A stretch of DNA of 64,000 bases from Methanobrevibacter gottschalkii DSM 11977 (GTDB lineage: Archaea > Methanobacteriota > Methanobacteria > Methanobacteriales > Methanobacteriaceae), in assembly GCF_003814835.1 (NCBI RefSeq), contig NZ_RKRG01000002.1, positions 248,001 to 312,000 on the forward strand. Reading direction: 5' to 3'. Below are positions 50,880 through 64,000 of this stretch, piece after piece (position 1 is the first letter of the stretch; each line of letters starts with the position of its first letter). A program made the position numbers and the translations under genes. Below the pieces are notes generated by a model. The model did no database searches and was not told where the DNA came from. It saw nothing but the letters and a program-made list of their open reading frames with translations.

Positions 50880-50901
50880 ATAAAAAATTAGTTTGTAATA
50901 A

Positions 50902-51238
50902 GTTATTCAACAAGAATCGGGAAACTCAGGTTTCTGTGATGAATTTATAAAATGAGCAATTGATTATGGTAATGGTGCTGTAAAATAGAATTTAAAATTA
51001 ATTAACATTGGATCATGTAAGCATTTATGTAATGTAGACTCCTGATGAAATGTTTTAAAAAGAGTATAATATTGGAATTTGCCGATAAAATGATGGAGTC
51101 GGATTGATTGTATATGCAACTGCAGATTACTATTATTCAATGTGTGGATAATTAAACTTCTTTGATATGACTTATCCTATATTAAATAAAAATTACTGTA
51201 TTTTAACTTCTGTTGTTCATATGAGAATAATGCATTAG
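50902..51238 (+). pseudogene. Decayed iron-sulfur flavoprotein gene (NADPH-dependent FMN reductase-like)
   Basis: Translation with stops ignored gives SGNSGFCDEFIK, AIDYGNGAVK and NLKLINIGSCKHLC in one frame, then after a shift TPDEMF, KEYNIGICR, NDGVGLIVYATADYYYSMCG, LNFFDMTYPILNKNYCIL in another. The series matches the iron-sulfur flavoprotein/FMN reductase family (CxxC region, TPDE-C, then VxATPVYxYSMCGQLKxFxDRTYP). Several nonsense codons and at least one frameshift show an old loss. It lies behind the intact flavodoxin gene. Confidence 0.75.
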
Positions 51239-51317
51239 TGAAATTAAAGATTTCATTGGATTTTCTAAAACCTTGGTAAGTATTAATTTTTTATATTAAT
51301 AAATTATATATTAAATT

Positions 51318-52286
51318 ATGTTTTCAAATATAGGTGTTGTTGGTGCAGGTGCTATGGGGACTGCAATTTCTCAAACCATCTGTGATAATACTCAAAAAGT
51401 TTCACTGTATGCTAGAAGGGAAGAATTAGTTGATTCAATAAATACAACTCGTTTTAATAAAGATTATTTTCCAAATATTCGTTTAAAAGATAATATAATA
51501 GCTACTAATGATTTAAATGATTTGAAAGATGCAGAAATAATCTTTTTAACATTGCCTTCTTCTACAATAAGGGAAGTTTGTTCTCAATTGAAATATATTA
51601 TTTCTCAAGATTGTGTTTTAGTAAACACTGCTAAAGGTCTTGAAAAGGGTTCTCAAAAAAGGATGAGTGAAGTTATCATGGAAGAAACTGGTAGGCCAGC
51701 TTGTGTATTATCAGGACCAAATATTGCTGTTGAAATGGTTGAAAGAACATTTTCTTCAGCATCTATTGCATGTGAAAATAAACAGTACCTTGAAAAAGTT
51801 GAAAAAGCACTATCAACTTTTAGATTCAAAGTTTCGGCCAGTTGTGATGTTATTGGTGTTGAATATTGTGGTGTAATTAAAAATATTATTGCAATATCCC
51901 AGGGAATCTGTGAAGGGATGAAAATAAATGACAATGCACGTTTTTCTGTATTTACAAAGACTTATAATGAAACTAAAGATATGATAGAAAAATTTGGTGG
52001 TAATAGGAACACTGTTGATGATTATTGTGGTTTTGGGGATATTATTACTGCTTCTACTTTAAATGTAAGTAGGAACCATACATTGGGTGTTTTATATGGT
52101 CAAAGAATTGTAATTGATGAGAAAGCATCAGGTGTTCTTTTTGAAGGAAAAAATACAATTGTAATAATGAAAAAATTATGTAAAAAACATAATATTGATT
52201 GTGCAACAGTTGATTTTACTTATGATGTAATTATCAATAGAATTAATCCTAAAAAAGCATTTGAAATATTTTGGGATAAATTATAG
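51318..52286 (+). CDS. gpsA: Glycerol-3-phosphate dehydrogenase, NAD(P)-dependent
   Basis: The 322-residue enzyme reduces dihydroxyacetone phosphate to sn-glycerol 3-phosphate. Motifs: IGVVGAGAMGTAISQTI (Rossmann), VSLYARREELVDSIN, VNTAKGLEKGSQKRMSEV, LSGPNIAVEMVERT, EYCGVIKNIIAISQGI (catalytic Lys region) and DYCGFGDIITAS. Archaeal lipids are built on sn-glycerol 1-phosphate, so a GpsA is unusual and fits surface polymer synthesis with the following cytidylyltransferase gene. Confidence 0.88.
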   Translation: MFSNIGVVGAGAMGTAISQTICDNTQKVSLYARREELVDSINTTRFNKDYFPNIRLKDNIIATNDLNDLKDAEIIFLTLPSSTIREVCSQLKYIISQDCVLVNTAKGLEKGSQKRMSEVIMEETGRPACVLSGPNIAVEMVERTFSSASIACENKQYLEKVEKALSTFRFKVSASCDVIGVEYCGVIKNIIAISQGICEGMKINDNARFSVFTKTYNETKDMIEKFGGNRNTVDDYCGFGDIITASTLNVSRNHTLGVLYGQRIVIDEKASGVLFEGKNTIVIMKKLCKKHNIDCATVDFTYDVIINRINPKKAFEIFWDKL

Positions 52287-52298
52287 TGAGATGGTTTG

Positions 52299-52994
52299 AT
52301 GATTTGTGCAGCAATACTTGCTGGTGGTATAGGGAGTAGATTAAAACAAGGAAAACCTAAACAGTTTGTTAACATTAATAATAAGCCAATTTTGGTTCAT
52401 TCTGTTGAAATATTTTTAAGTGTTGATGAATTAGATAAAATTATTGTATCCTCTCCAAAAGAATGTGTTGATAAAACAAATGATTTAATGGATGAATATT
52501 TCCCTAAAAATGATAAAATAATTGTTATTGAAGGTGGAGAAACTCGTAATGGCACTATATTAAATTCAATTCAATATATGAAAGGTCAAAATTGCGAAAA
52601 AGATTCTATTTTAGTAACTCATGATGCATCAAGAATATTTGTGTCTAAAAAATTAATTAAAGATAGTATTAAATACGCAATTGAAGTTGGTGCAGCTAGT
52701 GCTGCAATACCTGCAACAGATGTTATATTTGAAACAGAAATAGATGGGAAGCTTACTGGTGTTCCATTAAGGAAATATTTATGTCATGCACAAACTCCAC
52801 AGTCATTTAACATTGATAAATTTTTAGATATTTATGAAGATTTATCAGAAGAGGAAATATCTAAATTAGATGAAGCTATGGTGCTTTTCCATTTAAGGAA
52901 TGCCGATGTAAAATTATTCCCCGGCGATCAAAATAATTTTAAAATAACTCGTCCTTTTGATATTAAATTAGCTGAATCTATTTTTAAAAATTAA
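52299..52994 (+). CDS. IspD/TarI-type CTP:polyol-phosphate cytidylyltransferase
   Basis: About 231 residues from ATG 52299. The GT-A-like nucleotidyltransferase fold shows AAILAGGIGSRLKQGKPKQF at the start, ILVTHDASRIFVSKKLIKDS, PLRKYLCHAQTPQSFNIDKF and LFPGDQNNFKITRPFDIKLA, as in TarI and IspD. Archaea use the mevalonate pathway, so IspD is not needed; a CDP-ribitol or CDP-glycerol role is more likely. Adjacency to gpsA suggests sn-glycerol 3-phosphate as substrate, which is inference. Confidence 0.85.
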   Translation: MICAAILAGGIGSRLKQGKPKQFVNINNKPILVHSVEIFLSVDELDKIIVSSPKECVDKTNDLMDEYFPKNDKIIVIEGGETRNGTILNSIQYMKGQNCEKDSILVTHDASRIFVSKKLIKDSIKYAIEVGAASAAIPATDVIFETEIDGKLTGVPLRKYLCHAQTPQSFNIDKFLDIYEDLSEEEISKLDEAMVLFHLRNADVKLFPGDQNNFKITRPFDIKLAESIFKN

Positions 52995-53070: not shown

Positions 53071-54138
53071 ATGGACAATTTTAAGTGTGGAAGTATGGAT
53101 TTTAAGATTAGTGTTATTGCACCGGTTTATAATGCTGTTGATTCTTTAGAAATAGCAATAAATTCTATCATCAATCAAACAATTGGTTTTAAGAATATTG
53201 AATTAATTTTAGTTGATGATAAATCTAATGATGGATCTCAAGACATTATTAAAAAATATGCTGATAAATATGAAAATGTTATTGGAATATTTCTAAAGGA
53301 AAATTCAGGACTTCCAGGAAAACCAAGATCACTTGGAATTAAATATGCATCAGCACCTTACTTAATGTTTTTAGATGCTGATGATGAATATCTGCCTAAT
53401 GCTTTTGAACTGCTTTATAATACCATTGTTAATGAAAAATCTGATTTTGTAATGGGTTCTCATTTCTGGAATATGAATGGGGAGAGAATGAAAATTAATA
53501 TTTTACATGATTGTAATGATAAATCAGATGTAATTAATATTAATCCTTTTTTAAATCAAAGAAATTTTATTTTACTTAGTTATAATCATGTTGCACCATG
53601 GGGTAAAATTTTTAACAAAGAGTTAATATTAAAAAATAATATTTCTTTTCCAGAAGATACATTGGCTGAAGATACTTATTTTTATTTTAAAACTCTAATT
53701 AACTCAAAAAAAGTTACATTATTGCCTAATGATTCATTATATATGTATAATGTATTTGAAAATAAAGATTCTGTAATTCATACTCATAACCTATCTAAAT
53801 TTAACTATTTTTTAAAAGGTTTTGCTAATGTGATGGAGTTAATTAAGGATATTCCATTTTCTAAAGAGCGGATTTTAATTAGTAATATGGGAAGTTTGTT
53901 ATTAATATTTTCGAATTTATCTATGAAAGAAAAAAAAGAAGCTGTCCCGAAAATTTATTATTTTGAAAAATCATTAGATGAAGAAGTTGTTCTTAAAAGA
54001 AAGGAACTCATATTATTAAATAAATTGATTTTAAAAAAACATTTTTATTTAGCAATTATTATTTCTGATATTTACTCTATTCTGTATAATAATGAAAAAA
54101 TTAAAAATTTGTATAGAAAATGGGGTCATAAGGAATAG
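53071..54138 (+). CDS. Family 2 glycosyltransferase
   Basis: 355 residues: ISVIAPVYNAVDSLEIAIN, LILVDDKSNDGSQDIIKKYA, GLPGKPRSLGIKYASAPYL and FLDADDEYLP (DxD) in the catalytic half, and a helical, basic C-terminal half that may bind membranes. It follows the gpsA and cytidylyltransferase genes and may build the polymer they feed. The similar N-terminus of the 47076 glycosyltransferase marks them as relatives. Confidence 0.88.
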   Translation: MDNFKCGSMDFKISVIAPVYNAVDSLEIAINSIINQTIGFKNIELILVDDKSNDGSQDIIKKYADKYENVIGIFLKENSGLPGKPRSLGIKYASAPYLMFLDADDEYLPNAFELLYNTIVNEKSDFVMGSHFWNMNGERMKINILHDCNDKSDVININPFLNQRNFILLSYNHVAPWGKIFNKELILKNNISFPEDTLAEDTYFYFKTLINSKKVTLLPNDSLYMYNVFENKDSVIHTHNLSKFNYFLKGFANVMELIKDIPFSKERILISNMGSLLLIFSNLSMKEKKEAVPKIYYFEKSLDEEVVLKRKELILLNKLILKKHFYLAIIISDIYSILYNNEKIKNLYRKWGHKE

Positions 54139-54197: not shown

Positions 54198-55196
54198 TCA
54201 TATTCCACTAAATGTTCTTACATAAGGAATTTTGCTTAAAATATAAGGCATTAACCAAGATAAAAAAATTATCATTATGAACATTAATGGAAACATTAGA
54301 TTGGAATGGGGATTGTAATAAGATAAAAATTTAGTTACAATTACATGTGAAAAGTACATTCCATAACTACATATACTTAAAGAAATAATGCTTTTGCCAA
54401 TGAAGTTATCTTTTATCGCTTTAAATTTGTTTAATTTATCTGCATACTTAATAGATATGAATAAACCTAATCCCATAAATACAATTGGGATATTCTGATA
54501 AATAGAATGGATAGCAGTACTATTTATGTAATTTAAGTATACAAAACAACTTAATGAAATTAAAAGAGTGATAACTCCTAGAATACAAATTTTTTCATTA
54601 TTTAGTTTAAATTCTTTATTTTCTAAGTAGTAACCTAAAACTGGATAACCAACATAACCAGCAAAATAGCTTAAATCAAGGTTAGTCCACAATGGATAAA
54701 CATTAAATGTTTGTAAAATTATAATGCTAAACCATATAGCTAAAAAATATTTTAAACCTTTTTCACCATATTCTTTTACAAATGAATTGAGTATTGGTAG
54801 AAATAAATAAATTCCAATTAAAACCCAAAAATACCAAGTAATTGAGGGTTCACCAATAAATACTTTCCAGAGATATGTTGGATTGCCCCCATAATAATAT
54901 ATTTGAGCTAAAATAAGTATTATCCAAAAGATAAATGGGTAAATAATCCTTACAAATCTTTTCTTTAAAAATTGACTTAAATCAGGATATTCGCGATTTA
55001 ATAGAAGCGCTCCGCTTATCATTAAAAATATTGGCACACCAATTCTTCCAATATCATGAAAAGTCATTTGAACAATTATTTGTGTTGTACTTGTTAGTGG
55101 GCCAAAAAAATAGTCCACATGGCAAATAATAACTGCAATAATTGCAAATGCTCTTAAAAAATCGTAATAAAATATTCTCTCTTTTTTGGTTTTCAT
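54198..55196 (-). CDS. Membrane acyltransferase, family 3
   Basis: 332 residues with about ten hydrophobic helices. The family pattern is YDFLRAFAIIAVIICHVDYFF at the N-terminus (Arg-His catalytic region), then GRIGVPIFLMISGALLLNRE. Such enzymes O-acetylate or O-acylate surface polysaccharides from acyl-CoA. It is in opposite orientation inside the island. Confidence 0.9.
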   Translation of the reverse strand: MKTKKERIFYYDFLRAFAIIAVIICHVDYFFGPLTSTTQIIVQMTFHDIGRIGVPIFLMISGALLLNREYPDLSQFLKKRFVRIIYPFIFWIILILAQIYYYGGNPTYLWKVFIGEPSITWYFWVLIGIYLFLPILNSFVKEYGEKGLKYFLAIWFSIIILQTFNVYPLWTNLDLSYFAGYVGYPVLGYYLENKEFKLNNEKICILGVITLLISLSCFVYLNYINSTAIHSIYQNIPIVFMGLGLFISIKYADKLNKFKAIKDNFIGKSIISLSICSYGMYFSHVIVTKFLSYYNPHSNLMFPLMFIMIIFLSWLMPYILSKIPYVRTFSGI

Positions 55197-55364: not shown

Positions 55365-56447
55365 ATGAATTTAACTGAACTTTATTATAAATTACCTAAA
55401 AAAATTCGTTATTCTGAGAGATTTATATTGTTTTGTATCAAATTAGCTAAACCATTCCACAAGAAAAAAACACATGAAAAGGAGATTAATTATACATTAA
55501 ATTATTTATTCAAGTCATCTGATGTTAAAATTGAAGGTACTTTAAGGAATATTCAATTATTGTATGCTGAATTATTAAGATTCATTGATAATATATGTAA
55601 AAAATACAATTTAGATTATTGTTTAGCTTATGGAACTTTATTGGGTGCTATTCGTCATGATGGTTTTATTCCATGGGATGATGATTGTGATATCATCATG
55701 ATTAGAAATGATTATAATAAATTAATCGAGGTATTGCCTTCCGAAATCAATAAACACAAATTTTTAAAAGAAAATATTGGTTTAACAAAATTAGTCGGTT
55801 TTAGAGAAAATTATTTTAATAATGTTAAAACTCTTTATGATGAAGAATTGGGGCATGATGTTTATTTTCACGATTATAATAAAGCACCTAAACAATTTGA
55901 TAGTAAGTATAATGAAAAGTTACCGAATTTATGTAAATCATTATTTTTACAGATAGGTTGGCTAAAACCGATGGTTAGGTTAGATATATTTCCATATGAC
56001 TATATTGAAGAAAAATCCCTAAATCATTATGATAAACATTATCGTCCGGCTAAAGTGTCATTTAGAAATTTCTTTGCAGATGATGATTTTTCTTATGAAA
56101 AAGAATTTAATAAGCATTTTGATAAATTAGGCTTAACTCTTGAGAAAACTAAATATGTTGGTGAAGGTATAGATGGATCTGATGAATATGTAGGATCTTA
56201 TGATTCAAGCATGTTTTTCCCAGTAAAAACACATAAATTTGAAGGATATGATCTTAAATGCCCAAATAAATCTGAAGAGTTGCTTAAAAGATGGTATGGT
56301 GAAAGTTATATGAGTATCCCACAAGCTATTGTAATGCACGGATACTCAGAGTATAATTCTCGTTTCTTTGATTCAATTGAAGATATGAATGAATCATTTA
56401 AACTTGCTATAAATGAACTTAAAAAGATTAATGACGAATTCGAGTAG
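55365..56447 (+). CDS. LicD-family phosphotransferase
   Basis: The 360-residue protein has the LicD nucleotidyltransferase-like core DYCLAYGTLLGAIRHDGF and IPWDDDCDIIMIR near residues 90-120, followed by a large variable part and a conserved KCPNKSEELLKRWYG near residue 305. Family members (LicD, FKRP/FKTN) move phosphocholine or polyol phosphate from CDP-linked donors to glycans. GGTGCTTTTT precedes ATG 55365. Confidence 0.9.
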   Translation: MNLTELYYKLPKKIRYSERFILFCIKLAKPFHKKKTHEKEINYTLNYLFKSSDVKIEGTLRNIQLLYAELLRFIDNICKKYNLDYCLAYGTLLGAIRHDGFIPWDDDCDIIMIRNDYNKLIEVLPSEINKHKFLKENIGLTKLVGFRENYFNNVKTLYDEELGHDVYFHDYNKAPKQFDSKYNEKLPNLCKSLFLQIGWLKPMVRLDIFPYDYIEEKSLNHYDKHYRPAKVSFRNFFADDDFSYEKEFNKHFDKLGLTLEKTKYVGEGIDGSDEYVGSYDSSMFFPVKTHKFEGYDLKCPNKSEELLKRWYGESYMSIPQAIVMHGYSEYNSRFFDSIEDMNESFKLAINELKKINDEFE

Positions 56448-56499: not shown

Positions 56500-57333
56500 T
56501 TAATATTCGCCAAAATCAATCTCGTCAGGTGCTGGACTCCATTTGGATTCTTCTGGGGGTAATGCCATATAATTTCCGTATGTTCTGGTAAGAACTTTAT
56601 CATAATTATTCGGTATATTTACTTCAATATCTTCAAATTGTGCTTTTTTTGGAGGTAACCAATCAGTTTTATGATAAATTGGCATTTGGCATATTGCCGG
56701 GAAATCACATATGTCATCACAGTCATCATTTTGGTATTTGCGATAAGAATTCACACATCTTTTTTTAATTCCATATGCTGAAATAGGGATTATTTTTATT
56801 AAATAATGTATTGTTTGTTGTAATATTTTTTTTAATTTTGACTGATTGTCATATTTAATGAATGCATACATGGTTAACTGATTAAGTGAAAAACTAACCC
56901 ATTTATGAATAAATCTTTTGAAGCTATTATTTGGAATATTATCTAAAATGAATACATCAATAAAAATATTTTGAGTGTAATCAACTTGATCTGCCCACCA
57001 TTCATTTATTACAGTATTTTTTAGCATTAACCTGCCCCATGTGTAATGGTATGTTTCTTCATTTAAAACATTGATAAATCTGTATTTATCATCAATATCC
57101 TTCTCTATAATTTTATTTAATTTTTCAAATTCTTCTCTAAACATTATCACGTCAATATCATCATCCCATGGGATGAACCCTTTATGTCTTATGGTTCCAA
57201 GTAGGCTTCCGCCATATATGAAATAAGTTAAATCATTTTCTTCACAGAGTTTAATGAAATACTTTAAAATACACATTTGGACTTTTTGTAAATGTTTTAG
57301 AGTCTCATCATCGTATCGTTTTGTCCTGAACAT
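56500..57333 (-). CDS. LicD-family phosphotransferase
   Basis: 277 residues with FIYGGSLLGTIRHKGFIPWDDD and DVIMFREEFEKLN near residues 38-70. It is much closer to the partial third LicD gene at 63621 (both start YDDxTLKHLQ and share SLLGTIRHxGFIPWDDD) than to the 55365 copy, so the two flank the phosphonate genes as paralogues. The conserved C-terminal part is shorter than in the 55365 protein. Confidence 0.9.
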   Translation of the reverse strand: MFRTKRYDDETLKHLQKVQMCILKYFIKLCEENDLTYFIYGGSLLGTIRHKGFIPWDDDIDVIMFREEFEKLNKIIEKDIDDKYRFINVLNEETYHYTWGRLMLKNTVINEWWADQVDYTQNIFIDVFILDNIPNNSFKRFIHKWVSFSLNQLTMYAFIKYDNQSKLKKILQQTIHYLIKIIPISAYGIKKRCVNSYRKYQNDDCDDICDFPAICQMPIYHKTDWLPPKKAQFEDIEVNIPNNYDKVLTRTYGNYMALPPEESKWSPAPDEIDFGEY

Positions 57334-57449: not shown

Positions 57450-58757
57450 ATGAAATCTGATAATCCAATTGTATATACTTGTTTCTGTACCGATATTATT
57501 CATGATGGGCATCTAAATTTAATTAATGAAGCAAAAAAATATGGAGATGTTGTTGTCGGAGTTCTTTGCGACTCTGAAATGGTCAAATATAATAGATTTC
57601 CCTTAAAAACAACTGAAGAACGTATTGAATTAGTTAAAGAGATTCCGGATATAAAAGATGTAATTGTTCAAAATAAAATTATGTATGATGATGTGGTTTC
57701 TGAACTCAAACCGGATTATATTATTCATGGAGATAACTGGTCTGAAGAATCTATGAAGGTTATAAGGAGAAATATTATTTCTGTTCTTGATAAGTATGGG
57801 GGGAAATTAATCGAAGTTCCATATACTTTCAATGAAAAAATACAAAAAGTTGATAGGCAAATGAGAGAAAAGTTAGCAATGCCTGAACTCAGAAGAGCCA
57901 GATTAAGAAAATTATTAAACATGATTCCTGTTGTAAAAACAATTGAAGTGCACAGTGGATTAACAGGTTTAATAGCTGAAAAAACTGTTGTTGCTGACGA
58001 TGAACACATTGACCAATTTGATGCAATGTGGATTTCAAGCTTATGTGACAGTACAGAAAAAGGTAAACCCGATATTGAATTAGTGGATATGACTTCAAGA
58101 TTTAGAACAATTAATGACATTATGGAAGTCACTACAAAACCAATCATATTTGATGGGGATACAGGGGGAATAGCAGAACATTTTGTTTATACTGTAAGAT
58201 CTCTTGAAAGAATGGGTGTTTCAGCAGTGATTATTGAAGATAAAATTGGATTAAAGAAAAATTCGTTGTTTGGAAATGAAGTTAAACAGACACAAGATGA
58301 AATTGATCATTTCTGTGAAAAAATTTCTGCAGGTAAAAATGCTCAGTTATCTGAGGATTTCATGATTATAGCAAGAATTGAAAGTCTTATTTTAGAACAA
58401 GGTATGGATGATGCACTTAAAAGGGCATTTGCATTTCGTGATGCTGGTGCAGATGGCATCATGATTCACAGCAGAAGAAAAGAACCAGACGAAATCTTAG
58501 AATTTTGCGACAAGTTTAGAGCAGAAGATAAAGAAACCCCAATTGTAGTGGTTCCATCTTCATATAATACAATTACTGAAGATGAATTAAAAGCGCATGG
58601 AGTTAATATTGTAATTTATGCAAATCAGTTATTAAGAGCAGCGTTTCCATCAATGCAAAATGCTGCAAAAAGTATTTTAAAACATCATAGGGCTCATGAA
58701 ATAGATGAAAAGTTATTGTCTATTAAAAAAATTATTACTTTAATAGATGAATTGTAA
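57450..58757 (+). CDS. pepM: Cytidylyltransferase fused to phosphoenolpyruvate mutase
   Basis: The 435-residue protein has two domains. Residues 1-140 are a TagD-like cytidylyltransferase: TCFCTDIIHDGHLNLINEA (HDGH at 18-21) and IIHGDNWSEESMKVIRR. Residues 160-435 are PEP mutase, which makes phosphonopyruvate from PEP: FDGDTGG at 234-240 and the signature EDKIGLKKNS at 263-272, then MIHSRRKEPDEILEFCD. The mutase signature separates it from isocitrate-lyase-like relatives. AAGGTAAT precedes ATG 57450. It starts the phosphonate run. Confidence 0.93.
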   Translation: MKSDNPIVYTCFCTDIIHDGHLNLINEAKKYGDVVVGVLCDSEMVKYNRFPLKTTEERIELVKEIPDIKDVIVQNKIMYDDVVSELKPDYIIHGDNWSEESMKVIRRNIISVLDKYGGKLIEVPYTFNEKIQKVDRQMREKLAMPELRRARLRKLLNMIPVVKTIEVHSGLTGLIAEKTVVADDEHIDQFDAMWISSLCDSTEKGKPDIELVDMTSRFRTINDIMEVTTKPIIFDGDTGGIAEHFVYTVRSLERMGVSAVIIEDKIGLKKNSLFGNEVKQTQDEIDHFCEKISAGKNAQLSEDFMIIARIESLILEQGMDDALKRAFAFRDAGADGIMIHSRRKEPDEILEFCDKFRAEDKETPIVVVPSSYNTITEDELKAHGVNIVIYANQLLRAAFPSMQNAAKSILKHHRAHEIDEKLLSIKKIITLIDEL

Positions 58758-58766
58758 GGTGGTTAA

Positions 58767-59498
58767 ATGTCAAGATATGCAATTTTATCGGATATTCATG
58801 GAAATCTATTTGCTCTAAAAGAAGTTTTTAAGGATTTAAGTACACAAAAAACCGATTATATAATTCTTTTAGGGGACTTAATTGATTATGGGATGCAGTC
58901 TAATGAAGTTGTTGAGTTCATCCGTGATAATTTATCTTCAAAAATAATCTGTAATATCTGGGGAAATCATGAAATGGCTATTTTGACAAAAGATTTTAAA
59001 CATTTTTCAAGCTCAAGAGGTGTTGAATCAGCAAAATTTACTGATTCTATTTTAACTAACGATTCTAGGAGCTATTTAAACAATGAATTGGTTAAAGAGG
59101 GTAAATTAGATTTTGAAATATGTGAAAAACAAGTTTTAGCAGTTCATGGATCTTTAACGGATTATTATTGGAAAGCTATTTTTCCAGATAATTTAAATGG
59201 AAATTATATTGATTATGACATTGTTTTATCAGGCCATTCCCATTATCCTCATGTTTTTCAAAAGTTTTATGAAGTTGATGATCCGGACATGAGAAATAAG
59301 AAATCCGTATTGTTTATTAATCCGGGATCTGTTGGCCAGCCTAGAAATCATAATCCTAATGCTCAATATGCAATTTTAGACACTGATTTAATGAATATCG
59401 AATTAAAATCAGTTAAATACCCTAAATATGATGCTATGGATTTATATGATGGTAATATTGATGATTTTTATAGAAAAAGATTAAAAAATGGAATTTAA
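58767..59498 (+). CDS. Metallophosphoesterase
   Basis: 243 residues with the calcineurin-like metal motifs in order: ILSDIHGNLFALKEV, ILLGDLIDYGMQSNE, IWGNHEMAILT, VHGSLTD and LSGHSHYPHVF. The family hydrolyses phosphomono- or diesters. Position between pepM and the epimerase gene suggests a part in head-group processing or sugar-phosphate turnover, not certain. AAGGTGGTT precedes ATG 58767. Confidence 0.9.
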   Translation: MSRYAILSDIHGNLFALKEVFKDLSTQKTDYIILLGDLIDYGMQSNEVVEFIRDNLSSKIICNIWGNHEMAILTKDFKHFSSSRGVESAKFTDSILTNDSRSYLNNELVKEGKLDFEICEKQVLAVHGSLTDYYWKAIFPDNLNGNYIDYDIVLSGHSHYPHVFQKFYEVDDPDMRNKKSVLFINPGSVGQPRNHNPNAQYAILDTDLMNIELKSVKYPKYDAMDLYDGNIDDFYRKRLKNGI

Positions 59499-59506
59499 GG
59501 GATATT

Positions 59507-60511
59507 ATGAATATATTATATATTATTAGTGGTGTTACTGGAATGACTGGTAACGAGTTAGTTCGCCAGTTGTTAAATCAGAATGAAGATGAAGTGAAAA
59601 TCATCGGCTTCGATAATTTTTATGCATCTTCAATTGATACTGTAAGCGATTGTATTAATGACGGTCGTTTTGATTTTTATGAATATGACTTAAACAGTAA
59701 TGATGATATGGATAAAATTGAAGCACTGGTTTTAAGTATTAAAGATGATTTCGATGAATTAGTATATATTAACTGTGCAGCTGTTGTTCATACCGAACAC
59801 TTCTATAAAGTTTATGAAACTTATCAAACTAATGTTGCTAGTATGAATGACTTCTTACAACAGGCTATTCGTGTGGGTGCTGAAAAATACATTAATTGTT
59901 CCACATCAGAAGTTTATTCCATGAATTCATGGAATGAAGAGGGTGGGGTTAAAGAATCTGATTTCATCACTATGGCTGATGCAGAACACAGTCAAAGAAC
60001 TAGTTATGCAACTGGTAAATTGTTAACAGAGTTTTTTATGAAAGATTCTGTAGATAATGGCAAAATCAAGGGATGTTCTATTCGCTTTGCCAATGTTTAC
60101 AGTAAAGATGAAAAGTATCCAAAACATATTATTCCACATATTATTGATAGCTTTAAAAACAAGGGTGAAGTTGTTTTACTTGAAAATTCTAAAAAGAATT
60201 GCAGAACTTTCTTAAATAATTATGATAGTTGTAGTGCAGTAATTGAATTAGCTAAAACTGATTCTGCACTTGATGGTACAATTTATAATGTTGCAACAGA
60301 TGAAGAAATTTCAATTATTGATTTGGCAATATTAATTGCTAAAAAAATGGGAATTGATAAACCTGTTATTAAATTTGAAGGTTACCGTGAATCTGATCCT
60401 GAAAGAAGACTATTGTCCACTGAAAAAATTATAACCAGAACTAACTGGAAACCAATTATTGACTTGGATAAAGGATTGGATGAATGTATTGAGAACTACA
60501 CTAAAAATTAG
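59507..60511 (+). CDS. NAD-dependent epimerase/dehydratase (extended SDR)
   Basis: 334 residues. NILYIISGVTGMTGNELVRQL is the dinucleotide loop (GxxGxxG), INCAAVVHTEHFYKVYETYQ and NCSTSEVYS follow, and the catalytic pair is SYATGKLLTEFF (YxxxK). The C-terminal substrate region DPERRLLSTEKIITRTNWKP is GalE/RmlB-like. It probably modifies a nucleotide sugar; a phosphonate substrate is also possible given its neighbours. Confidence 0.88.
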   Translation: MNILYIISGVTGMTGNELVRQLLNQNEDEVKIIGFDNFYASSIDTVSDCINDGRFDFYEYDLNSNDDMDKIEALVLSIKDDFDELVYINCAAVVHTEHFYKVYETYQTNVASMNDFLQQAIRVGAEKYINCSTSEVYSMNSWNEEGGVKESDFITMADAEHSQRTSYATGKLLTEFFMKDSVDNGKIKGCSIRFANVYSKDEKYPKHIIPHIIDSFKNKGEVVLLENSKKNCRTFLNNYDSCSAVIELAKTDSALDGTIYNVATDEEISIIDLAILIAKKMGIDKPVIKFEGYRESDPERRLLSTEKIITRTNWKPIIDLDKGLDECIENYTKN

Positions 60512-60521
60512 GTGAATAGAC

Positions 60522-61292
60522 TTGAAAATTTCCATTATTACTGTTGCTGGTGTTTCCAGCAGGTTCAATAAAGATATTTCTGAAGAAGAAAAGATGTTAA
60601 AATGCATATATTATGAAGAAAATCCTAAAGACACTTTAATTTATAAAATGATTAATAAATTATCATATTGTGATAAAATAGTTGTTGTTGGAGGATACAA
60701 ATACTCTGATTTAACTGAATATGTCAATAAAGAAATTCCTATAGAGTTACAGGAAAAAATCATGCTTGTTGAAAACGACCGTTATGCTGATCTAAGCTCA
60801 GGTTACAGTTTATACTTAGGAATCAAAGAATCTTTAAATAATTTTGATGGTATTGAGGAATTACTTTTTGTAGAAGGTGATTTGGACATTGATTCAGAAT
60901 CATTAACAAAGGTAATCGATTCTGATAAAAATGTTTTAACATTCAATAGAGAACCAATTTTTTCAAATAAATCTGTTGTTTTATATCAAAATGAAAATGA
61001 TGAATACCATTACTTATTTAACAGTAATCATGGAATGTTAATCTTAAATGAACCATTTAAAGCTATTTTTAATTCAGGTCAAACTTGGAAATTTAGAGAT
61101 ATTGAATTACTTAAAATAGCTAATGATTATTTTTATGAAAATTGTATAGATGATACTAATTTGGGCATTATCCAAAAATATTTTGATTCAGTTGAAAATA
61201 AAGATACTATTGAGATTATCGGATTGGAACATTGGGTTAATTGTAATACTCGTGCTGATTATCAATATATAAAAGAATACTGGGGGAAATAA
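60522..61292 (+). CDS. Sugar-phosphate/choline-phosphate-type nucleotidyltransferase
   Basis: The 256-residue protein has the NTP-transferase start SIITVAGVSSRFNKDISEEEK (Gly-rich loop with SRF), IVVVGGYKYSDLTEYVN, LVENDRYADLSSGYSLYLGI and LLFVEGDLDIDSESLTKVI (metal Asp), like LicC and MobA-related enzymes. LicC makes CDP-choline, so this is a candidate for activating a phosphonate head group. Start TTG 60522 follows AGGTGA. Confidence 0.83.
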   Translation: MKISIITVAGVSSRFNKDISEEEKMLKCIYYEENPKDTLIYKMINKLSYCDKIVVVGGYKYSDLTEYVNKEIPIELQEKIMLVENDRYADLSSGYSLYLGIKESLNNFDGIEELLFVEGDLDIDSESLTKVIDSDKNVLTFNREPIFSNKSVVLYQNENDEYHYLFNSNHGMLILNEPFKAIFNSGQTWKFRDIELLKIANDYFYENCIDDTNLGIIQKYFDSVENKDTIEIIGLEHWVNCNTRADYQYIKEYWGK

Positions 61293-61293
61293 C

Positions 61294-62475
61294 ATGAAAA
61301 ATTTAGATGAAAGGTTAAAAATAGTAGAAAAACATGTAAAAGATGATGAAATTACAATAATGATTATTGGTTTAGGTAGTGTTGGAACATATTTGCTTGA
61401 CTTTTTAGTAAGTAAAAATGATGCTGCGATAAAATTAGTAGTTGTTGGAAGAAATCAGGAAAAAATGCAATCTGATGTTAATATTGTCCGTGTTGCAGGT
61501 CTTATTCGTGAAGTTAACAAATCTCAAATTGTAGTTGAAGCAGGTGTTGACTTAAACGATATTGATTCAATTCAAAAAGCAATCAGTAAACATAATCCTG
61601 ATTTTATTGTTAATTCAAGCAGAGCATATCCTGGTCTTAAATATGGAAGTATATCTTGGAGTAATGTAAGGGCTTACGGTATTTGGACTCCTTTGTCAAT
61701 TAAATTTACTAAAAATATTATGGAAGCATGTGAAAATGTTGACACTGATGCAGTTGTCATTAACACTTCATACTCTGATGCAGTTATTCCATGGCTTAAA
61801 AGTGCTGAAAAAGCATATCCTGACTTTGGAAGTGGAAATTTAAATCACTTAATTCCTAGAATGAAATTTGCAGTAGCAAATATTTTAGGGGTGGATGATT
61901 TCTGGAATGTTGACTTTAATTTTGCAGCAGCTCATTTCCATGATGTATGTATTAGTAAAGAAGGACAAACCGAAGGTGTGGACTTGCCTCTCAAGATATA
62001 CTACAAAGGCGATGAACAAGACATTCCTCATGATGAAATTTATAATGCATGTTCAATTAGTATGCCCGTTGATCAAAAAAGGAATATGATGAATGCTTCT
62101 AGTAATTATCGTATTATTTCAGCAATAATTGATGCAATACGCACCGGTGAGAATCAAAAAATATTTTCTCCAGGAGCGTTTGGTCATATTGGAGGATATC
62201 CTGTAATTATTGGTTATAAAGAGGGTAAAATTTCTGCTTGGATTGATGAATCTGTATTTACATTTGATGAAATGGATAAAGCAAATCGTAAATCCCTTGC
62301 TTTAGATGGTGTGGAAGATATTCTTGATGCAACCTTAATCTACACTGATGATTTAATTAAAAAAGTTGAAAAAGCATTTGGTGAAGATTTACCGAAAAAA
62401 GTAAAATATGATGAAATTGAAAAAACCGCTGAATTTCTCATTGAAAAGATAATCACTCCACAATTAAATAAATAG
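61294..62475 (+). CDS. Rossmann-fold oxidoreductase of unknown specificity
   Basis: The 393-residue protein starts, after a short lead, with ITIMIIGLGSVGTYLLDFL (GxGxxG), then KLVVVGRNQEKMQSDV and HNPDFIVNSSRAYPGLKYG, like a saccharopine-dehydrogenase or glyceraldehyde-phosphate-type NAD(P) protein. The central HLIPRMKFAVANILGVDDFW and AAAHFHDVCI are unfamiliar to me. It is a candidate for the step after phosphonoacetaldehyde in the cluster. GGGGGAAAT precedes ATG 61294. Confidence 0.8.
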   Translation: MKNLDERLKIVEKHVKDDEITIMIIGLGSVGTYLLDFLVSKNDAAIKLVVVGRNQEKMQSDVNIVRVAGLIREVNKSQIVVEAGVDLNDIDSIQKAISKHNPDFIVNSSRAYPGLKYGSISWSNVRAYGIWTPLSIKFTKNIMEACENVDTDAVVINTSYSDAVIPWLKSAEKAYPDFGSGNLNHLIPRMKFAVANILGVDDFWNVDFNFAAAHFHDVCISKEGQTEGVDLPLKIYYKGDEQDIPHDEIYNACSISMPVDQKRNMMNASSNYRIISAIIDAIRTGENQKIFSPGAFGHIGGYPVIIGYKEGKISAWIDESVFTFDEMDKANRKSLALDGVEDILDATLIYTDDLIKKVEKAFGEDLPKKVKYDEIEKTAEFLIEKIITPQLNK

Positions 62476-62486
62476 GATCAATCATA

Positions 62487-63605
62487 ATGAAAGTTGAAGA
62501 TTTTGTTGATGTTTTGGATTGTGAATTTTATACTGGTGTTCCGGATTCACAATTAAAAGCATTATGTAATTATTTGATAAATGAATATGGCATTGATGAA
62601 AAGCATCATTTAATCGCAGCTAATGAAGGTAATTGCACCGCTCTTGCTGCAGGTTATCATTTAGCAACTGGAAAAGTTCCAGTCGTTTATATGCAAAATA
62701 GTGGTGAAGGAAATATTATCAATCCTGTTGCATCACTTTTAAATGATCAAGTTTATGCAATTCCAGCTATTTTTGTCATCGGATGGAGGGGACAACCTGG
62801 AATTCATGATGAACCTCAACATATTTATCAAGGAAAAATTACTTGTGATTTGCTTGATTTAATGGATATTGAGAACTTTACAGTCAGTCCGGAAACTTCT
62901 GTTGATGAACTGAATGATGTAATGATTAAATTTAATAATGTTTTAAAATCAGGTAAAAGTGTTGCATTTGTTATTCTTAAAAATGCTTTAACTTATGATG
63001 GGAAAACTATTTATGAAAATGATAATGAACTAATTCGTGAAGAAATTATAGAACACATTGTTAATGTATCTGATAGTGATCCAATTGTATCAACAACGGG
63101 TAAAGCAAGCCGTGAGCTATTTGAAATAAGGGAATCTAAAAATCAAGCTCATAAACATGATTTTTTAACAGTTGGTTCAATGGGGCATTCTTCTTCTATT
63201 GCTCTAGGGATTGCAATAAATAAGCCGGATAAACGTGTTTGGTGTATTGACGGTGATGGAGCTTTATTAATGCATATGGGATCAATGCCGGTTGTTGGAA
63301 ATGTTAATCCTGATAATTTAATTCATATTGTAATAAATAATGGTGCTCATGAAACCGTTGGTGGAATGCCAACTGCAGCGGCAGGTACTGATTTAGTTGC
63401 TATTGCAAAAGCTTGTGGTTATTCTTATGCAGTTTCTGTGGATAATATTGATGATTTGGATGAAGAACTTATTAAAGTAAAAAATATGGGTAATTTATGC
63501 TTTATTGAAGTATTATCTTCAATTGGTTCACGTGCTGATCTTGGAAGGCCGACTACAACAGCATTAGAAAACAAAAAAAGCTTTATGAACTTTTTAAATC
63601 AATGA
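62487..63605 (+). CDS. ppd: Phosphonopyruvate decarboxylase
   Basis: The 372-residue TPP enzyme turns phosphonopyruvate into phosphonoacetaldehyde and pulls the unfavourable PEP mutase reaction forward. Its PYR part shows DVLDCEFYTGVPDSQLKAL and HHLIAANEGNCTALAAGYHLA near residues 41-60 with VVYMQNSGEGNIINPV; the PP part shows VWCIDGDGALLMHMGSM and LIHIVINNGAHETVGGM (GDG...NN TPP motif). Its length and order match AepY. It completes the core pair with pepM. Confidence 0.95.
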   Translation: MKVEDFVDVLDCEFYTGVPDSQLKALCNYLINEYGIDEKHHLIAANEGNCTALAAGYHLATGKVPVVYMQNSGEGNIINPVASLLNDQVYAIPAIFVIGWRGQPGIHDEPQHIYQGKITCDLLDLMDIENFTVSPETSVDELNDVMIKFNNVLKSGKSVAFVILKNALTYDGKTIYENDNELIREEIIEHIVNVSDSDPIVSTTGKASRELFEIRESKNQAHKHDFLTVGSMGHSSSIALGIAINKPDKRVWCIDGDGALLMHMGSMPVVGNVNPDNLIHIVINNGAHETVGGMPTAAAGTDLVAIAKACGYSYAVSVDNIDDLDEELIKVKNMGNLCFIEVLSSIGSRADLGRPTTTALENKKSFMNFLNQ

Positions 63606-63620
63606 ATTTTAAGTGGTATT

Positions 63621-64000
63621 TTGAAATATAATGAATATGATGATAAAACATTAAAACATCTGCAAAGTTTGGAATTAATGATTTTAAAGGATTTCATTAA
63701 AATTTGTGAGGAAAATAATCTTACATATTACATGTATGCTGGTTCCCTTTTAGGAACCATTAGGCATAACGGGTTTATTCCTTGGGATGATGATCTGGAT
63801 GTAATCATGTTTCGTGATGATTTTGAAAAATTCAAAAAAATTTTTATTTCATCTCAAAGTGATAAGTATGAATTATTGTCCAATGAAACTGAAAAAGATT
63901 ATTTTCATTTGCTTTCAAAATTAATGCTTAAAAATACTAAATTTGAGGAAGACTGGGTTAATCAGGTTGATTTTCATATTGGAATAAATATGGATATTTT
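63621..64000 (+). CDS. LicD-family phosphotransferase, cut by window end
   Basis: The frame from TTG 63621 reads LKYNEYDDKTLKHLQSLE and then YYMYAGSLLGTIRHNGFIP with WDDDLDVIMFRDDF, continuing off the right edge. It is a close paralogue of the 56500 gene. AGTGGTATT upstream is a weak ribosome binding site; no ATG is better placed. As the next gene after ppd it is the best candidate for transferring the activated phosphonate. Confidence 0.88.
   Translation, partial: MKYNEYDDKTLKHLQSLELMILKDFIKICEENNLTYYMYAGSLLGTIRHNGFIPWDDDLDVIMFRDDFEKFKKIFISSQSDKYELLSNETEKDYFHLLSKLMLKNTKFEEDWVNQVDFHIGINMDI

Follow-up and report, generated by a model that had tools for sequence, protein, structure and literature searches.

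Why does a gut methanogen encode GpsA, and why directly in front of a cytidylyltransferase gene? Studies of the lipid divide count the GpsA of Methanobacteria as a bacterial lipid gene whose role is unclear (PMC5059525, PMC6431249), and Yokobori 2016 and Coleman 2019 list it in Methanobacteria or in archaea generally with no surface-polymer role assigned. We analyzed a window of 64,000 nucleotides from Methanobrevibacter gottschalkii DSM 11977, which lies on contig C2; the genome measures 1.88 Mb and is 99.98% complete. A sequence-only reading of this window had proposed that GpsA supplies sn-glycerol-3-phosphate (sn-G3P) to a CDP-glycerol-like donor for decoration of the cell wall. Our analysis indicates that a role in CDP-polyol synthesis very probably accounts for the presence of this "bacterial lipid" enzyme in the gut methanogen.

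The first gene of the pair (51318..52286, + strand) is an intact open reading frame of 322 aa. Pfam, NCBIfam, a residue table and a phylogenetic tree identify its product as a GpsA-type NAD(P)H-dependent glycerol-3-phosphate dehydrogenase belonging to a TarI-paired clade. It contains PF01210 (1e-43) and PF07479 (1.5e-32) and scores 266 bits against NF000942 (cut-off 257), while remaining under the cut-offs of the equivalog-level GpsA models. Compared with 52 bacterial GpsA, the protein retains K106, K188, N189, D241, R252 and N253, positions that are invariant in bacteria and to which a part in catalysis or in binding of the phosphate is generally ascribed; human K204, K120, D260, R269 and N270 correspond to K188, K106, D241, R252 and N253. 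The archaeon therefore does carry an sn-G3P-type GpsA, as evidenced by the intact gene, both domains and the NF000942 score, and the catalytic lysine that the earlier reading had singled out for checking is present as K188. Judged by these residues the enzyme is catalytically intact and would reduce dihydroxyacetone phosphate (DHAP) to sn-G3P. The sole exception among the placeable residues is the pocket threonine (human T264, E. coli T252), which is replaced by A245. Human T264 is listed with the binding-pocket residues of GPD1 (PMC11187211). Alanine occupies this position in all 20 GpsA of the A-type, threonine in 61/61 other archaeal GpsA compared and in 52/52 bacterial ones. The A-type sequences form a monophyletic clade (SH-aLRT 95), and 19 of the 20 have a TarI partner; the exception, L090, has a LicD gene as its neighbour and a TagD-type fusion further on.

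The second gene (52299..52994, + strand) starts with an ATG at 52299, following a mechanically called TTG at 52296, and is separated from gpsA by 12 bases. Its product is, by NCBIfam and PDB scores, residues and an AlphaFold model, a TarI-type and not an IspD-type cytidylyltransferase. It matches PF01128 (4.8e-45) and reaches 278 bits against NF001183, D-ribitol-5-phosphate cytidylyltransferase (cut-off 166), but only 155 bits against the IspD equivalog TIGR00453 (cut-off 181). Likewise, PDB entries of TarI score 151-180 bits and those of IspD at most 87, and the fold nearest to the AlphaFold model is S. aureus TarI. Of the original label "IspD/TarI-type" the TarI half thus stands and the IspD half falls away. 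An IspD of the MEP pathway was rejected on these scores and on the absence of IspF from the genome, where the search for DXR returned nothing but a spurious 36-residue match; that the cytidylyltransferase has no MEP pathway to serve was correctly anticipated. The enzyme keeps the catalytic residues R15, K22, D110, R113, R159, T167 and K216, and the CTP-binding/catalytic positions (R20, K27, D106, R109, R157, T165 and K213 in E. coli IspD) are invariant across 17 clade, 47 archaeal and 30 bacterial sequences. Two further positions, P110 and T140 in E. coli IspD numbering, which we take from structure 1INI to be substrate-pocket positions, are changed to isoleucine and valine (window I114 and V143, numbered from the TTG at 52296). 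All 19 TarI of the window clade carry I and V here, all 78 others P and T. The AlphaFold model is least confident at the pocket loop, residues 139-144 (pLDDT <50). The clade is monophyletic with a support of 100/100. From CTP and sn-G3P this enzyme would be expected to form CDP-glycerol.

In this TarI clade of 19 sequences, GpsA has replaced TarJ, the enzyme that converts ribulose-5-phosphate to ribitol-5-phosphate, as the dehydrogenase partner. Clade TarI occurred with GpsA at every locus read (16 loci, plus L103-L110 and others), although 1.3-1.5 kb separates the two in L076 and L077. Even a far-diverged pair with reversed gene order (L252) has the same three pocket states (I, V and Ala). 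Other TarI adjoin TarJ, both in the neighbourhood set (7/7) and in 70 of the 72 archaeal and bacterial TarI of L111-L182; one of the two remaining lies at a contig end (L137) and the other, with the usual P,T pocket, has no detectable TarJ (L149). At the sequence level, matching changes in both active-site pockets are shown to accompany the partner exchange. Since both clades are monophyletic, these pocket changes represent one evolutionary event and not many. The dedicated pairing of GpsA with a nucleotidyltransferase and the exchange of partners appear to be new; we found no paper on a GpsA-TarI pair in the openly searchable literature. This swap of GpsA for TarJ, with pocket changes that match, provides a clean natural experiment on substrate specificity.

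For a census across the order, we looked for both proteins in 151 genomes and compared the stretches around the matches. After removal of duplicates, 82 distinct GpsA places remained, and at 76 of them a TarI, LicC-like or TagD-type nucleotidyltransferase lies within 2.5 kb, in nearly all cases as the immediate neighbour and on the same strand. Three of the other six places (L259, L265, L274) lie at contig ends; at L285 a LicC-like gene is one gene off from GpsA, and at L023 and L025 the stretch stops within the gene next to it. No clear counter-example to the pairing was seen among the 82 places. Families f2 and f3, whose GpsA are only 32-36% identical, also have a gpsA and LicC-like pair. 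Other GpsA adjoin TagD-type domains, for which the closest model is glycerol-3-phosphate cytidylyltransferase (115 bits, below the cut-off of 165). Overall, comparative genomics links GpsA across the order to nucleotidyltransferases and to LicD or TagF-type transferases, and this near-universal pairing argues that GpsA in this order is, as read from gene context, an enzyme of surface-polymer precursor synthesis and not of lipids. Several relatives have a LicD gene some 20-40 bp upstream of their gpsA and in the same orientation. The corresponding region of the window (50880-51317) is non-coding and degenerate-looking, and several relatives have LicD there; a hidden LicD was considered and dropped, as tblastn gave no match or LicD remnant at 50880-51317.

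Could the sn-G3P instead feed bacterial-type or hybrid phospholipids? In bacteria it is GpsA that determines the stereochemistry of glycerol-3-phosphate (PMC6431249), but the genome encodes EgsA (C3:78154) and lacks PlsY, which disfavours lipid use, and nucleotidyltransferases stand beside GpsA throughout the order. We consider this explanation extremely improbable and rejected it as the main role of the enzyme, in agreement with the initial view that this GpsA does not serve archaeal lipids. GpsA thereby gains a concrete surface-polymer role and ceases to be evidence for bacterial-type lipids in the order. A bacterial origin was examined as well. Recent transfer from gut Clostridia is not supported, the best GpsA in 391 Clostridia genomes being 35% identical, and no closer bacterial GpsA was found when 22 other bacterial genomes were included. 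Plasmid-borne GpsA as a donor was discarded, with matches of only ~30-35%. A GpsA-like gene on a Streptomyces plasmid (L247:4800-9008) follows TfuA-like, YcaO-like and methyltransferase genes, which suggests a natural-product role for this GpsA homologue. The best bacterial TarI is ~43% identical to that of the window and bacterial TarI nearly always adjoin TarJ; this search used two peptide patterns, by which divergent relatives could be missed. In a broad GpsA tree with bacteria, the phylogeny proposed in the sequence-only reading, the archaeal sequences lie to the same side of a branch whose support is weak (66). Transfer, if there was any, would be old or from an unsampled donor, which differs from the recent rumen transfer that was expected.

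The same genome holds other polymer genes. PmurB, a pseudomurein protein, exceeds its curated cut-off. Outside the window, and thus missed by the sequence-only reading like the other genes described next, a second gpsA is followed in a row by a LicC-like gene and a PF04464 (TagF-family) gene (L064:9798-13297, contig C2), an apparent CDP-glycerol polymer operon. The best PDB match of the LicC-like protein is a CTP:phosphocholine cytidylyltransferase; the gpsA-licC-tagF context points to CDP-glycerol. Moreover, a true tarI-tarJ pair is located at C5:54452 (L063:8453-10172), and with its TarJ scoring 368 bits against S. aureus TarJ the genome also has a complete-looking CDP-ribitol pair. Almost every genome of the genus has this apparent CDP-ribitol pathway. 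In total we counted eight PF04464 and four LicD matches, so that CDP-polyol synthesis and PF04464 or LicD transferases, the combination that marks teichoic-acid-type systems, are both present.

Downstream of the pair, the window continues with a GT2 glycosyltransferase probably belonging to a surface-glycan cluster (53071..54138, + strand; PF00535, 3.2e-30) and a membrane acyltransferase of the Acyl_transf_3 type (54198..55196, - strand; PF01757), which may O-acylate a glycan and belongs to a family that relatives also have next to the pair. Two LicD-family phosphotransferases follow, one of 360 aa (55365..56447, + strand; PF04991, 1e-31) and one of 277 aa (56500..57333, - strand). The claim that the pair is placed next to LicD genes thus holds loosely: two LicD genes are in the window, but 2.4 and 3.5 kb downstream and not adjoining. 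Orthologues of the second (63-83% identical) adjoin most GpsA-TarI pairs, and its sole PDB relative is FKRP (fukutin-related protein); this LicD is the best candidate user of the CDP-polyol.

A phosphonate cassette occupies 57450-63998 and is a sub-module separate from the GpsA-TarI pair that it adjoins. It opens with a CTP_transf-like/PEP mutase fusion (57450..58757, + strand; PF01467, PF13714, TIGR02320 with 414 bits versus 320) carrying the EDKx5NS motif as EDKIGLKKNS, and continues with a metallophosphoesterase, an NAD epimerase, DUF6564, a saccharopine-DH-like protein and a phosphonopyruvate decarboxylase (62487..63605, + strand; TIGR03297, 458 bits). It also includes a third LicD, of which the window end leaves only the start (63621..63998, + strand) and whose match is complete at C2:311705-312382. 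As the cassette has no PhnW-type aminotransferase, its product is possibly CMP-hydroxyethylphosphonate, as for Fom1. The gene order is conserved in L068 and L071-L075, and for M. millerae ZA-10 a PEP mutase and a phosphonopyruvate decarboxylase have been reported, with a suggested role in modifying the wall. Other loci have a TagD-type/MocA oxidoreductase fusion beside LicD (L067:12134-15390; also L066, L070, L078, L090, L095 and L096), often together with a PhnW-like aminotransferase and a methyltransferase, and this arrangement alternates with the phosphonate cassette; from its gene content it looks like the synthesis of a CDP-amino-polyol (choline-like) decoration. In L076-L078, the pair adjoins what by sequence reading is an apparent nonulosonic-acid cluster of the pseudaminic or legionaminic type, where the profile scan covered the "surface carbohydrate" protein TIGR04396 only.

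Taken together, these data make it highly likely that the GpsA-TarI pair acts as a module that supplies a CDP-polyol for the cell surface, and we propose that it works as a dedicated unit of two enzymes. GpsA would reduce DHAP to sn-G3P, as suggested by its catalytic residues, and the TarI-type enzyme would use CTP to convert this to CDP-glycerol, as suggested by its conserved CTP-binding and catalytic residues. The gene neighbourhood suggests that LicD transferases would then place the polyol phosphate on a surface polymer or glycan, which may be decorated further by cluster-specific cassettes such as the phosphonate one. That the polyol is sn-glycerol we consider somewhat favoured, and the route as a whole, from sn-G3P through CDP-glycerol to a LicD-dependent teichoic-acid-like or surface-glycan decoration, is our best overall reading, held with modest confidence. 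The neighbours (the phosphonate and nonulosonate cassettes, GT2, acyltransferase and LicD) are compatible with a wall teichoic acid and equally with a decorated surface glycan.

What may speak against glycerol is the pocket threonine missing from all clade GpsA together with the clade-wide changes in the TarI pocket. Additionally, 11 of the 19 genomes that hold A-type GpsA also have a canonical T-type GpsA, which would make a second supply of sn-G3P redundant. Both observations allow for a different polyol: the pair may have shifted together to another ketose/polyol phosphate, for instance a C4 compound, and make a CDP-polyol other than CDP-glycerol and CDP-ribitol. The matched pocket states and the co-occurring T-type enzyme are what this shift would predict, but each change arose once, so the correlation counts as a single event and may reflect inertia; the nearby genes encode no candidate ketose phosphate, and the A-type GpsA of L090 adjoins LicD and a TagD-type fusion and not TarI. 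We regard such a shift as possible though rather unlikely; if true, an undescribed surface CDP-polyol would exist beside separate CDP-glycerol and CDP-ribitol modules in one genome.

That the window TarI still makes CDP-ribitol, with ribitol-5-phosphate from a TarJ encoded elsewhere and GpsA as an unrelated neighbour, would suit the NF001183 family name and the tarI-tarJ pair on contig C5. This is very unlikely, given that GpsA is paired at 19 diverse loci including the reversed L252, that the pocket residues are unlike those of all 78 other TarI, and that the genome already has a TarI beside its TarJ. Proximity to the phosphonate cassette, in the window and in L068 and L071-L075, might suggest that the pair works for it by activating the phosphonate or making its carrier. 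However, no phosphonate genes were seen around the pair in L065-L067, L069, L070 and L076-L079, and the mutase has its own fused nucleotidyltransferase domain, which leaves a service to the cassette highly improbable.

Two elements were on record before: the occurrence of GpsA in Methanobacteria and that of teichoic-like genes in M. ruminantium. The M1 genome paper, in the parts considered here, describes M. ruminantium walls with high, teichoic-like phosphate and proposes teichoic homologues (Leahy 2010, PMC2812497), and an M1 annotation paper uses the names TagF and TagD. Our system shares the genus and this setting; the GpsA-TarI pairing, the GpsA-LicC-TagF operon and the partner exchange are unnamed in those parts. 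With the pair, the teichoic-like phosphate of Methanobrevibacter walls gains an enzymatic basis that can be tested; these walls matter for host interaction and for methane mitigation. With GpsA as known, the window protein shares both Pfam domains, a score above the NF000942 cut-off and the catalytic Lys, Asp, Arg and Asn; it is ~30-35% identical to the Bacillota GpsA compared and differs in its pocket alanine and in being set among nucleotidyltransferases instead of lipid genes. Similarly, the TarI-TarJ system, which makes CDP-ribitol for the wall teichoic acid of Bacillota, has the same cytidylyltransferase family, fold and operon logic of dehydrogenase plus cytidylyltransferase, whereas here the partner is GpsA, P110 and T140 are replaced and the host is archaeal. 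In the capsule of Actinobacillus pleuropneumoniae, the LicD-family CpsC transfers Gro3P from CDP-glycerol made by GCT to build poly(glycerol-3-phosphate) (PMC11666461). The archaeal module would share the CDP-glycerol donor and has the LicD-family transferase, with the role of the glycerol-3-phosphate cytidylyltransferase falling to a TarI-type enzyme. Finally, in dystroglycan modification ISPD provides CDP-ribitol for Fukutin and FKRP, again an IspD-like cytidylyltransferase supplying a LicD/fukutin-type transferase, but with a different dehydrogenase source and acceptor and no close homology.
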